Assembly (NCBI RefSeq): GCF_006542275.1
Contig: NZ_CP041217.1
Coordinates: forward strand, 2,713,501 to 2,777,500
Reading direction: 5' to 3'
DNA: 64,000 bases
Source of the DNA: Saccharibacillus brassicae
GTDB lineage: Bacteria; Bacillota; Bacilli; Paenibacillales; Paenibacillaceae
The position numbers and the translations under genes are program-made. The notes under the pieces were generated by a model. It was not told the DNA's origin and made no database searches. It worked only from the letters and a program-made list of their open reading frames with translations. This document shows positions 10,234 to 52,817 of the stretch, in pieces. Every line of letters starts with the position of its first letter. Position 1 is the first letter of the stretch.

Positions 10234-10417
10234 CTAACGAATCGTCATAACGTTAAATCGGCTTTTAGAGACAATCCCGTGTTTTAACGAATTCTCATAT
10301 CGCTATTTCGTGCGTAGAGGCTGCAAAAGGCGCTTTACACGCAATTAGCGTGATGACGATTCGTTAGATTTGAAAAAAGGTCCAAAACGCGCCTATAGCG
10401 TGATCAGGATTCGTTAG
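10234..10417. repeat. Four-arm intergenic repeat, copy 1
   Basis: Four about 22-bp arms in 184 bp. Forward arms (form CTAACGAATCGTCATAACG) lie at 10234-10255 and 10284-10306; reverse-complement arms (form CGTGATGACGATTCGTTAG) at 10344-10367 and 10395-10417. Arm starts are 50 bp apart on the left and arm ends 50 bp apart on the right. The arms are conserved between copies but the spacers are not. The same layout recurs at 48263 and 52633. It fills most of the 460-bp gap between coaW and the next gene; no open frame is evident in it. Confidence 0.9.
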
Positions 10418-10450
10418 CCAAGCGCGGCGGCCGCGAGCATAATCCACTTT

Positions 10451-10520
10451 GGAAGTGGAAGTGGAAGTGGAAGTGGAAGTGGAAGTGGAAGTGGAAGTGG
10501 AAGTGGAAGTGGAAGTGGAA
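10451..10520 (+). repeat. GGAAGT hexanucleotide tandem repeat
   Basis: Eleven perfect copies of GGAAGT plus GGAA. It ends 27 bp before the start codon of the following gene, so copy-number change would alter the distance to any promoter upstream without shifting the frame. It starts 33 bp after four-arm repeat copy 1. Confidence 0.95.
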
Positions 10521-10547: not shown

Positions 10548-11816
10548 ATGAAGCCCGTGCAGCCCGCAGATTCGACACGTTCGTTAAATCCAACAAAACC
10601 GACAAAACCGGCACATCCATCAAATCCAGATAATCCGACGCATCTCACAAATCCGGCACAGCCGACAAACTCATCAAATCCATCACATTCGACAAATCCA
10701 ACAAATCCGGCGCATCCAGATAATCCGGCACGGCCAGAACAACCAGCAAATCCGAAAAACCCGCCACAGCCACATCCAGCATATCCAGCGCGACCAGCAT
10801 ATCCAGCGCGACCAGCAAATCCGACAAACCCGCATCAGCCACCCGCGGCTTCCCGTCCGCAAGCCACCTCCAGCCAAGCCTTCCTCCAAGCCACTCACCA
10901 ATCCGTGCTCCAAGCCTCCTCCCAATCCGTCCATAACGCTGCTAGCCAAGCCACTCACCAATCCGCGCTCCAACCCCCCGCCAGCCAAGCAGCCTTCCAA
11001 GCCACCCGCCAATCCGCGCTCCAAGCCTCCGCCCTCCAAGAGGCCCATCATGCGGCCGCAAGCATACGCGAGGCGCTGGGAGCCTGCGTGACCGGCCTCT
11101 ACCTGCACGGTTCGCTGGCGATCGGCGGCTTCAATCCGGCGTCGAGCGATATCGATCTGCTGGTCGTCGTGCGAGAACGGCCGGAGTCGGAGCGGCTGTA
11201 TGCGCTGACGCGCAGTACGCTGGAGACGCACGCCCGTTTTCCGGCCGGCCGCGACCTGGAATTCAGCGTCGTGGAAGAGGATGTTCTCCGTCAATTCAGG
11301 CATCCGGCGCCGTGCGTCTATCATTATTCCGGGGCGCACCGCGAACGGTACGCTTCCGATCCGCACTATTTGTGCGCGGACTACGCGGATGACGATCTGG
11401 CCGCGCAGGTCACCGTCGCCTACGAGCGCGGCGTCGCTTTGTACGGTCCGCCGCTGCGCGATTCGTATCCGCCGGTGCCCAAGCATGCTTATCTGGAGTC
11501 GGTCTGGAGCGACGTGCGCGGCGCCGAAGCGGAGATTACGGACAATCCGGTCTATCTGACGCTTAATTTGTGCCGGGTGCTGATGTTCCTGAAGACCGGG
11601 ACGGTCGCTTCGAAAAAAGAAGGCGGAGAATGGGCAGCTTCGGCGCTCCCGGAATGGACGGACGTGGTGCGGCCCGCGCTTGAGGATTACGCAGGAGACA
11701 TCCGAAGTGCCCCGGCGGTGTCGGAAGCCCGGCTGACGGCTTTTGCGCAGGACATGCTGCGGGCGATCGCCGAGCAGGCGGCTTTTCATGGCGTTTCCCT
11801 GCGGGGAGGGCTATAA
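10548..11816 (+). CDS. Aminoglycoside-adenylyltransferase-like nucleotidyltransferase with repeat-derived N-terminus
   Basis: The C-terminal 250 residues of this 422-residue protein form a nucleotidyltransferase of the ANT/AadA type with a DUF4111-like helical domain: LYLHGSLAIGGFNPASSDID contains the GS...DxD signature (about residues 185-205). Such enzymes adenylylate aminoglycosides, but many homologues have unknown substrates. The first about 165 residues are low complexity: Asn-Pro-x-x units for about 100 residues, then Ser/Gln/Ala-rich repeats. The start is ATG 10548, which has AAAAGGAGGG 8 bp upstream; an earlier in-frame ATG at 10449 would translate the GGAAGT repeat and lacks a ribosome site. 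No methionine lies between the tail and the catalytic domain, so the tail is probably translated. Confidence 0.75.
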   Translation: MKPVQPADSTRSLNPTKPTKPAHPSNPDNPTHLTNPAQPTNSSNPSHSTNPTNPAHPDNPARPEQPANPKNPPQPHPAYPARPAYPARPANPTNPHQPPAASRPQATSSQAFLQATHQSVLQASSQSVHNAASQATHQSALQPPASQAAFQATRQSALQASALQEAHHAAASIREALGACVTGLYLHGSLAIGGFNPASSDIDLLVVVRERPESERLYALTRSTLETHARFPAGRDLEFSVVEEDVLRQFRHPAPCVYHYSGAHRERYASDPHYLCADYADDDLAAQVTVAYERGVALYGPPLRDSYPPVPKHAYLESVWSDVRGAEAEITDNPVYLTLNLCRVLMFLKTGTVASKKEGGEWAASALPEWTDVVRPALEDYAGDIRSAPAVSEARLTAFAQDMLRAIAEQAAFHGVSLRGGL

Positions 11817-47512: not shown

Positions 47513-48166
47513 ATGACGGAGTTTGCAAAAGAATACGCCGGTTGGATAGACGCCCAACTTGCGGCCGAGCCGAATCCGAGAAGAAGAGAGCGGCTCGAAG
47601 CGGGATTGGGGCACGGGAGCGTGGAGTTTTTGCGTTCGATCTGGCTGCCCGCGCTCAAACATTTCGACCATCTGCATGCCGAATGGGAAGTGCGCGATCT
47701 GAACGGGGGATACCGGTATATCGACTTCGCGTACCGGCCCGGCGGCGCGAAAGGCGCGATCGAAATCCAGGGCTACGGTCCGCATGCCCGGGATTTGGAT
47801 GTGCGGCGGTTCAAGGATCTGTGCTGGAGGCACAGCCTGCTCGCTCTGGACGACTGGACGCTGCTGCCGATCGCGTATCCGTCGATTGCGGAAGAGCCGG
47901 GCCGCTGCCGCCAGCTGATCCTTGCTTTTGCCGGGAAATTCACCGCTTCGGCTGCCGAACCGTCTCTATCCTGGTTGGAGGCGGAGCTGCTGCGGTTTGC
48001 TCGCACGACGCCGATCCCGTTTACGGCGGCGCGCCTTGCGGAGCATCTGCGAATCAGCAGCCAGCACGCCAGGCGCCTGCTGCATGCGTCCGTATCAAGC
48101 GGACATCTCGTCGTGGCGAGCGGCAAAGAAAGATTCCGAACGTACCGGCTGCCGGAGTGGAAATGA
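47513..48166 (+). CDS. Predicted PD-(D/E)XK-like protein with C-terminal winged helix
   Basis: A 217-residue protein I do not recognise by name. Residues about 60-85 read YRYIDFAY...GAIEIQGYG, the spacing D-(about 12)-ExQ seen in restriction-endonuclease-fold proteins (Vsr/DUF559 type), followed by a helix DVRRFKDLCWRHSLLALD with conserved Arg and His. Residues about 165-217 form a winged helix-turn-helix (ARLAEHLRISSQHARRLLHASV). This could be a small DNA-binding nuclease or a regulator with a dead nuclease fold. ATG 47513 follows GGAGGGAGAGG. Four-arm repeat copy 2 lies 97 bp after its stop. Confidence 0.6.
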   Translation: MTEFAKEYAGWIDAQLAAEPNPRRRERLEAGLGHGSVEFLRSIWLPALKHFDHLHAEWEVRDLNGGYRYIDFAYRPGGAKGAIEIQGYGPHARDLDVRRFKDLCWRHSLLALDDWTLLPIAYPSIAEEPGRCRQLILAFAGKFTASAAEPSLSWLEAELLRFARTTPIPFTAARLAEHLRISSQHARRLLHASVSSGHLVVASGKERFRTYRLPEWK

Positions 48167-48262: not shown

Positions 48263-48446
48263 CTAACGAATCCGTATAACGCTACATTGGCGAAAACGGG
48301 GATTTTGAAAATCTAACGAATCGTAGTCACGCTATAGGAACAAAAACGTGCGAAATGTGCGATATGGGGCCGAATAGCGTTACGACGATTCGTTAACATT
48401 CGGAAAACGGCTTTTTTTCCGGAATAGCGTTATGAGGGTTCGTTAG
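48263..48446. repeat. Four-arm intergenic repeat, copy 2
   Basis: Forward arms at 48263-48284 and 48313-48335, reverse arms at 48374-48396 and 48424-48446, each beginning or ending in CTAACGAATC / GATTCGTTAG-type sequence. The total length of 184 bp and the 50-bp pitch are identical to copy 1 at 10234. It occupies much of the gene-free 48167-48661 gap. Confidence 0.92.
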
Positions 48447-48456
48447 CTGCATCATT

Positions 48457-48533
48457 GGGACGGGGGACGGGGGACGGGGGACGGGGGACGGGGGACGGGG
48501 GACGGAGAACGGGGAACGGGGAACGGGGAACGG
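48457..48533 (+). repeat. Heptanucleotide tandem repeat
   Basis: Seven copies of GGGACGG, one AGAACGG, then three GGAACGG. It begins 10 bp after four-arm repeat copy 2 and ends just before the GH51 promoter. Confidence 0.95.
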
Positions 48534-52632: not shown

Positions 52633-52817
52633 CTAACGAATCCTGCACACGCTATATTGCGCCTCAGCGCGCTTTTATCCAAACTAACGAATCGTCATCA
52701 CGCTATCGGCTCGAATTCGTCCCAAAACGGCCTGTTAGCGCTCAATAAGGATATGACGATTCGTTAGATAGCGGAAAAAGCGGAAAATGGACAAATAGCG
52801 GTATGAGGATTCGTTAC
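52633..52817. repeat. Four-arm intergenic repeat, copy 3
   Basis: Forward arms at 52633-52655 and 52684-52706, reverse arms at 52735-52767 and 52795-52817; total 185 bp. Arm 3 contains extra bases (CTCAATAAGGAT) between TTAGCG and ATGACGATTCGTTAG, and arm 4 ends CGTTAC instead of CGTTAG. Starts 24 bp after the GH51 stop. Confidence 0.88.

Follow-up and report, generated by a model that had tools for sequence, protein, structure and literature searches.

Intergenic repeats of approximately 100-200 bases that occur in many copies are represented by the BOX, RUP, RU/ERIC, and bcr repeats. To our knowledge, and judged by their descriptions, none of these has four arms in forward-forward-reverse-reverse order (FFRR) or a linked nuclease. 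Short sites in inverted order, two or more per end, characterize the ends of Tn7-, Mu-, and IS21-type elements as well as MITEs, and in REPINs two REP hairpins are paired that carry a conserved tetranucleotide tag (GTAG).

The RAYT enzyme (TnpA-REP) is described as a HuH enzyme that processes single-stranded REP sequences and co-evolves with the REP repeat (PMC8266576), and REP repeats are also reported from genomes without a RAYT gene, as in E. coli (PMC8049555). For the FFRR elements described here, we favor with moderate confidence a role as DNA sites for a cognate enzyme, a small PD-(D/E)XK nuclease, the gene of which lies beside one of the copies.

Four-arm elements in the window and on the chromosome

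The window (the whole 64-kb stretch of DNA that was analyzed) contains three FFRR elements and, before the second of them, a nuclease gene:

10234-10417: FFRR element 1; forward arms 10234-10256 and 10284-10306, reverse arms 10345-10367 and 10395-10417
48263-48446: FFRR element 2; forward arms 48263-48285 and 48313-48335, reverse arms 48374-48396 and 48424-48446
52633-52817: FFRR element 3; forward arms 52633-52655 and 52684-52706, reverse arms 52745-52767 and 52795-52817
47513-48166, + strand: candidate cognate nuclease gene, 217 aa; predicted PD-(D/E)XK domain (DUF559/Vsr-like) and C-terminal winged helix-turn-helix

The window arms read [C]TAACGAATC-n7-CGCTAT, twice forward and then twice reverse, and the arm consensus of this window family is TAACGAATC-n7-CG[C/T]TA. 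A 20-base arm pattern with up to three mismatches gave 10 matches in the window compared with none in 100 dinucleotide shuffles, and a 22-base gapped pattern matched all 12 window arms at an expectation of 0.42. Together with the positions, both searches bear out the three copies that had been noticed in an earlier inspection of the letters alone (the sequence-only reading). Their location between genes, also claimed there, agrees with the gene model made in this analysis; element 2 starts 97 bases 3' of the nuclease gene, and element 3 is flanked by convergent genes. The pitch between neighboring arms had been given as a constant 50 bp, which holds for elements 1 and 2, but not for element 3 with a first pitch of 51.

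The window's own genome (G000) is that of a Saccharibacillus and consists of a single contig of 5,619,468 bases. Here, the single-arm pattern had 77 + 86 matches on the two strands compared with 2 + 2 for a reversed-pattern control, and pairs of forward arms at 50 bases (FF pairs) numbered 53 + 53 compared with 2 + 1. The chromosome carries at least 55 FFRR elements with a family length of 182 bases, a lower bound obtained from 52 loci at part of the FF-pair places plus the window, and the three window copies are thus far from the only ones. The spacing does not vary freely elsewhere: 38 elements are spaced exactly 50/81/50, 14 have one or two gaps that differ from this by a single base, and in three an outer arm is missing. 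Near-constant spacing in so many copies supports the proposed selection on arm position. The spacers, on the other hand, had been called unconserved and free, and this part fails, as they are partly conserved: the 38 equal-length copies have the common spacer consensus ..CGCTATTTGCCC-TTTT-GGC-TTTTT... Extra reverse arms at the same pitch occur in two loci (L071, FFRRR; L085, FFRRRRRR), and L092 is a tandem pair of elements. A guanidine-I riboswitch match was also noted in the locus with the longer array (L085:1009-1143).

Measured between dyad centers, the four arms lie approximately 50/61/50 bases apart. In oriented elements, the left and right halves are unlike, with left arms ending in ..ATCACGCTAT and right arms in ..CATATC[GC][CT]TAT. 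The only symmetric part of the window-family arm is formed by its outer half-sites, TAACG..CG[CT]TA, and even this dyad is frequently mismatched at position 3/19, which is paired in 8-40%. The autocorrelation of A/T tracts at lags 9/10 reached 0.23/0.18 inside the elements versus 0.02/0.01 in the flanks, while the second period was weak (0.05 at lag 19, -0.04 at lag 20). These tracts and the ten-base spacing steps reported below suggest helical phasing and bending of the element DNA.

With regards to gene context, 29 of the 55 elements by the same gene model lie between convergent genes, 25 in tandem gene pairs, and one between divergent genes. Control gaps of at least 150 bases in the same loci (n = 75) comprised 8 convergent, 48 tandem, and 19 divergent cases, which is equivalent to a convergent enrichment with a Fisher p of 1.8e-7 and a divergent depletion with p = 1.3e-4. 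Elements in tandem gene pairs were oriented with transcription in 10 cases and against it in 10. On a larger scale, the oriented elements (L069-L117) seemingly point mostly in one direction from approximately 3.3 to 4.2 Mb and mostly in the opposite direction from 4.4 to 5.5 Mb.

Simple tandem repeats directly follow elements 1 (10449-10520, GGAAGT) and 2 (48462-48532, GACGGGG-like). Across the own genome, a tandem repeat with a unit of 4-9 bases was found within 120 bases of 5 of the 55 elements versus 1 of 330 control points (p = 2.7e-4), and several TAACGGATC elements of a related genome (G005) directly adjoin such repeats as well. The gene after element 1 (10548-11816) has an Asn/Pro-rich repeat at its N-terminus, followed by a region that resembles, by its motif, a nucleotidyltransferase domain.

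The nuclease gene and its matched repeats

The nuclease gene before element 2 was picked out by a cross-genus comparison of the proteins flanking such elements. It lies outside the intervals covered by the sequence-only reading, which had seen no linked gene. Homologues from P. lupini, P. lignilyticus, P. cisolokensis, and S. qingshengii are 54-82% identical to the window protein and adjoin FFRR elements. The enzyme is present in 42 of 59 searched genomes, including the own one (E <= 1e-5), often as several paralogues. In a phylum-wide sample of 398 genomes with up to seven candidates scored in each, it was found in seven (E <= 1e-15), and since five of these, again including the own genome, belong to the own family, the enzyme looks centered on the order Paenibacillales. 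One strong homologue (L429 in G183; E 1e-77) comes from a 1.6-Mb genome of another family of the phylum, where the sole FFRR-like match was weak and unlike the arms; a transfer or a misassigned contig is possible. Among viral contigs, 99 stretches matched a peptide pattern, none of which codes for a relative of the nuclease.

The DUF559 (PF04480) cut-off of 20.6 bits was passed by two of eight homologues (L292, 26.6; L272, 23.5), and winged-helix cut-offs were passed in the C-terminal part by two others of the eight (L301, L305). The window protein itself gave no Pfam match above the cut-off and no DUF559 match at E <= 1. The fusion of a nuclease and a winged helix is thus proposed from a common alignment, in which different divergent homologues carry either the DUF559 or the winged-helix match. 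In 70 homologues, E58, D70, E83, and H90 (L241 numbering; 59, 71, 84, and 91 if the start Met is counted) are 97-100% conserved, and judged from this alignment the catalytic-type motif of the nuclease is intact.

Linkage was assessed with a de novo detector that is given no arm sequence and seeks FFRR arrangements within 1.3 kb of the gene. The 73 homologue loci included 30 that are the best match of their genome and 40 more chosen from the upper part of a longer match list; five of the 73 (L120, L160, L161, and L216 with two pieces of one gene) had initially come to light through their arms. An FFRR was detected at 56 of the 73 loci (38 of 42 close and 18 of 31 distant homologues), or by subtraction at 51 of 68 without the arm-found entries and at 50 of 67 if the window locus is removed as well. 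It lay downstream of the gene in 52 cases, upstream in 11, and on both sides in seven, and the distance from stop codon to arm ranged from -29 to 365 bases. The background amounted to 1 of 51 other loci, all from Saccharibacillus and the one being a known element, and to 0 of 210 block shuffles (Fisher 1e-18 for the linkage); L309, L326, and L394-L401 were excluded from this background as holding known elements or facing the sites of such elements. At the remaining 17 homologue loci (4 close, 13 distant), no FFRR was detected, and since one paralogue locus (L272/L431) was scored as lacking an FFRR that was detected otherwise, the detector misses some. We consider it very likely that the linkage of nuclease and repeat is real.

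Within approximately 1.5 kb on either side, the nuclease has no further neighbor that recurs from genus to genus, be it a transposase, ATPase, methylase, or immunity gene; the only shared neighbors are those of one paralogue that occupies the same place in six Saccharibacillus genomes. Of the 10 genomes of this genus that have the enzyme, 9 contain three or more FF pairs, compared with none of the 6 that lack it; the pattern at two mismatches also catches TAACGGATC. One genome (G021) has 10 + 11 FF pairs and elements with a center of 91-92, yet no enzyme match; the repeats may have outlasted a lost enzyme there, and a genome with the same genus code (G390) carries both the enzyme and an FFRR with a center of 92 (L428). 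Another genome (G431) has the enzyme with no FFRR detected (L427).

FF pairs with up to two mismatches were found in 29 of the 59 genomes, including the own one; 17 had at least five, and 12 had one to three, which equals the control level. Matches in Parabeggiatoa and endosymbionts are probably due to chance, as three loci contained no FFRR (L137, L189, L121) and a fourth (L146) one low-complexity match unlike the arms.

With the pitch fixed at 50 bases and the center left free, the inner distance from forward to reverse arm outside the fetched own loci (with L054 left in as a single own locus) was 82 in 71 cases, 81 in 22, 92 in 12, and 91 in one, and no distance of 84-90 was among the 40 commonest listed. 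Beside nuclease homologues, 43 TAACG-type elements were measured with a free pitch of 44-61 and a free center, after exclusion of the 13 of 56 entries without the TAACG register. The center measured 81-83 in 32 of them, 91-92 in eight, and 80, 84, and 124 in a single element apiece, where the value of 124 (L245) probably reflects a misread tandem; the pitch was 49-52, compared with 61 in one of the excluded entries (L291). The center is thus nearly always 81-83 or 91-92, and this ten-base step fits DNA helical phasing. Five of the eight long centers belong to one enzyme clade (L255, L257, L265, L266, L278), the sixth member of which has 82 (L267), two sit elsewhere on the enzyme tree (L248, L286), and one lies at a gene fragment that is absent from the tree (L271).

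The arm sequence also changes with the enzyme: TAACGAA, TAACGGA, TAGGGAACA, AAATAACTGC, ACTTTGTACA, and others are found in different clades. When the AA and GA arm classes were placed on the enzyme tree (n = 37, with loci of other arm classes excluded), five changes were needed, while 100 shuffles needed 10.9 on average and never fewer than seven, which means that arm type co-varies with enzyme subfamily. In 13 of the 56 entries, the arm consensus is clearly palindromic, best so in distant homologues such as L292 (AAATAGGGAACA-n4-TGTTCCCTATTT), which suggests dimer sites.

Several such pairs occur side by side. Two genomes (G002, G008) have both the TAACGAATC and the TAACGGATC family together with both paralogues, and two more (G005, G015) have the TAACGGATC family and its paralogue among the matches listed. 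In the own genome, a AAATAACTGC four-arm family gave 73 + 71 FF pairs compared with 0 + 0 in the control, with places that include C1:811848, 865469, 2097552, and many more; these arms are near-palindromic and can therefore be counted on both strands. One copy lies approximately 360 bases from a nuclease paralogue at C1:3820848, and these two FFRR families alone give the own genome well over a hundred arm pairs. Other genomes gave 27 + 19 (G002; control 1 + 0) and 4 + 5 (G022; control 1 + 1) FF pairs of the AAATAACTGC type, and the enzyme-free G001 and G003 gave one and none. The TAACGGATC-type paralogue also seems to be present in the own genome in a disrupted form: a nuclease gene fragment with a TAACGGATC-like FFRR directly behind it was noted in L271 (G000 C1:3165800-3169100).

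Inheritance, proposed mechanism, and rival explanations

The enzyme gene lies approximately 4 kb before an arabinofuranosidase gene in four genomes (G000, G002, G007, G008), from which we conclude that it is vertically inherited there. The elements, in turn, come and go between genomes. At one site, the flanking gene is present in all 16 Saccharibacillus genomes and a complete FFRR in two, with a three-arm remnant in G002; at another, the gene is present in 15 of 16 and a complete FFRR in one. To compare sites directly, 20 loci of G005 were fetched, 11 were probed, and 10 pairs with G015 were compared, six of them base by base. The element was common to both genomes in six pairs, and a larger, untidy difference separated the other four, with no clean empty site among them. 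Paenibacillus sp. YN15 contains nine similar copies in different surroundings, the 36 pairs of which are 90-95% identical with varying ends. No target duplication was seen in the G005/G015 and YN15 copies compared, where a usable empty site was missing. Eight of the YN15 copies (L140, L150, L166, L169, L183, L199, L203, L205) have common extra flanks that often start with GGCTGTCCGAAAA, and the far flank of two copies holds its reverse complement, whole or partial; perhaps these flanks are a second repeat riding along.

Where elements were retained, the arms are preserved and the remainder drifts. Eight orthologous pairs were taken, three of which were dropped because a complete four-arm element was missing from the partner locus, and each partner was represented by the element, in the orientation, that matched best. 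At the remaining five sites, identity was 261/280 (93%) in the arm half-sites, 93/140 in the arm middles, and 256/420 (61%) in the spacers. The identity of the 9-base core (169/180) is partly ascertained because detection demands two or fewer mismatches in it, and the second half-site, which is free of this effect, is identical at 92 of 100 positions.

We propose the following mechanism, in which binding of the arms by the nuclease is, judged from these comparisons, likely and mobilization of the elements an even call. Each arm would be a site for the winged helix at the C-terminus of the enzyme, which probably binds as a dimer, with two half-sites per arm. Spaced approximately 50/61/50 bases apart, with A/T tracts about every ten bases, the four sites would bring the bound proteins close to a single face of the element, a bent segment of 182 bases, and one complex would gather the left and right halves. 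That the arms are protein sites near one helix face had been one suggestion of the sequence-only reading, and it is the probable one. The nuclease might then nick or cut near the element, and repair would copy or maintain it, so that a non-autonomous repeat population would be tied to one vertically inherited nuclease gene.

The other suggestion, a structured RNA with nested stems of arms 1/4 and 2/3, can practically be dismissed. Two window copies do fold well (z -5.6 and -6.7), which is a consequence of having arms in inverted order. In the 38 equal-length elements, however, paired cells amounted to 79.2% compared with 82.4% in shuffles, all 500 of which were at least as high, and the would-be partner arms of 52 oriented elements showed no covariation (z -2.0 for the outer and +0.4 for the inner pair; +1.7 and +2.1 for neighbors, -0.9 and -3.1 for cross pairs). 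Rfam gave no match to the element in a search with the element and nine other loci, the even split of orientations in tandem gene pairs shows no bias relative to transcription, and a center that moves in ten-base steps is likewise at odds with stems, which were rejected. A use by the host, which we consider unlikely as a full explanation but treat as the main rival, deserves more weight. A domesticated DNA-binding protein would act on architectural sites that serve as roadblocks, terminators, or supercoiling points between convergent genes, with little present mobility. The enrichment between convergent genes and near absence between divergent ones, half-sites conserved at orthologous places while spacers drift, A/T periodicity that is absent from the flanks, and the six of ten elements common to G005 and G015 all agree with it. 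Yet avoidance of promoters is equally expected of tolerated insertions, 6 of 16 Saccharibacillus genomes do without an enzyme match and have 0-2 FF pairs, and the two sites with near-universal flanking genes rarely hold a complete element. Several paralogue/arm pairs per genome and a retained nuclease motif fit poorly as well. Host use at convergent gene ends and nuclease-maintained repeats are compatible and need not exclude each other.

A miniature transposon that consists of just the ends of a classical element (IS21-, Tn7-, or Mu-like, each end with two transposase sites), with the nuclease as a TnsA-like helper, would also suit the two arms at each end and their inverted order, the differences between the left and right halves, and the dispersed YN15 copies of high identity. 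We regard this as improbable, given that in flanks of approximately 1.5 kb neither a transposase nor any other gene accompanies the nuclease from genus to genus, that no target duplication was seen in the copies compared, and that the center length is held to approximately ten-base steps, which ends-only elements would not need. Even less probable is a self-limiting cutter, where the elements would be decoy or marking sites that restrain the nuclease or aim it at invading DNA in the manner of defense or addiction. The predicted fusion to a DNA-binding domain, the many genomic sites, and the patchy distribution are in line with such a role; against it, the PADLOC matches of the four proteins searched were confined to the helix-turn-helix region at the C-terminus, conserved neighbors include neither a methylase nor an immunity gene, and a nuclease that cuts the sites it maintains in its own genome would do harm if left unchecked.

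Comparison with known enzyme and repeat systems

Returning to the nuclease-maintained repeats that we favor, the broader proposal is that in Paenibacillales chromosomes a population of four-site repeats is driven and maintained by its PD-(D/E)XK nuclease in place of a transposase. Each enzyme lineage would have its own arm sequence and spacing, with several pairs side by side per genome, as an independent invention of the REPIN/RAYT lifestyle. This proposal is tentative, and we would place it slightly short of an even chance. If this is true, REPIN-like sequence populations depend on neither RAYTs nor transposases and can be run by an unrelated enzyme. The matched enzyme/site pairs would offer a natural set for studying DNA choice by winged-helix nucleases as well as helical-turn spacing and complex assembly, and nuclease-linked repeats may explain many interspersed intergenic repeats in Paenibacillaceae.

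Among titles and abstract openings listed for the open-licence literature with preprints excluded, we found no description of this four-arm repeat or of a repeat-linked DUF559 nuclease, which agrees with the earlier impression that no family of this form had been described. We assign the system to no known family: the enzyme is not of the RAYT class, Tn7 partner genes were not found, and neither was RNA covariation. It looks like a new kind of enzyme-plus-repeat system in bacterial genomes.

The nuclease domain is shared with DUF559 (PF04480) and Vsr-like nucleases, with two of eight homologues above the Pfam cut-off, but the FFRR-linked enzyme has a fused winged helix and a four-arm repeat beside its gene. 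Unlike MITEs and Tn7-, Mu-, or IS21-type ends, FFRR elements have no transposase partner among the conserved flanking genes, no target duplication was found in the copies compared, and the center length is fixed; unlike TnsA in Tn7, the nuclease has no partner transposase or ATPase gene conserved in flanks of approximately 1.5 kb. A close parallel is REPIN/RAYT. As that literature describes it, both systems link a nuclease gene to extragenic repeats at dispersed sites, with further repeats in enzyme-free genomes and with co-variation of enzyme and repeat, and the nuclease gene is accompanied by its cognate repeat at 56 of 73 homologue loci in the way of RAYT genes. In contrast to the HuH (Y1) enzyme described there, the window enzyme is predicted to combine PD-(D/E)XK and a winged helix, based on conserved E/D/E/H residues and DUF559 matches in divergent members, and instead of a hairpin pair, the FFRR element has four arms at 50/81/50 with a window-family dyad often mismatched at 3/19. 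By this comparison, the FFRR/nuclease system appears REPIN/RAYT-like in its logic, with an enzyme and an architecture that seem unrelated.
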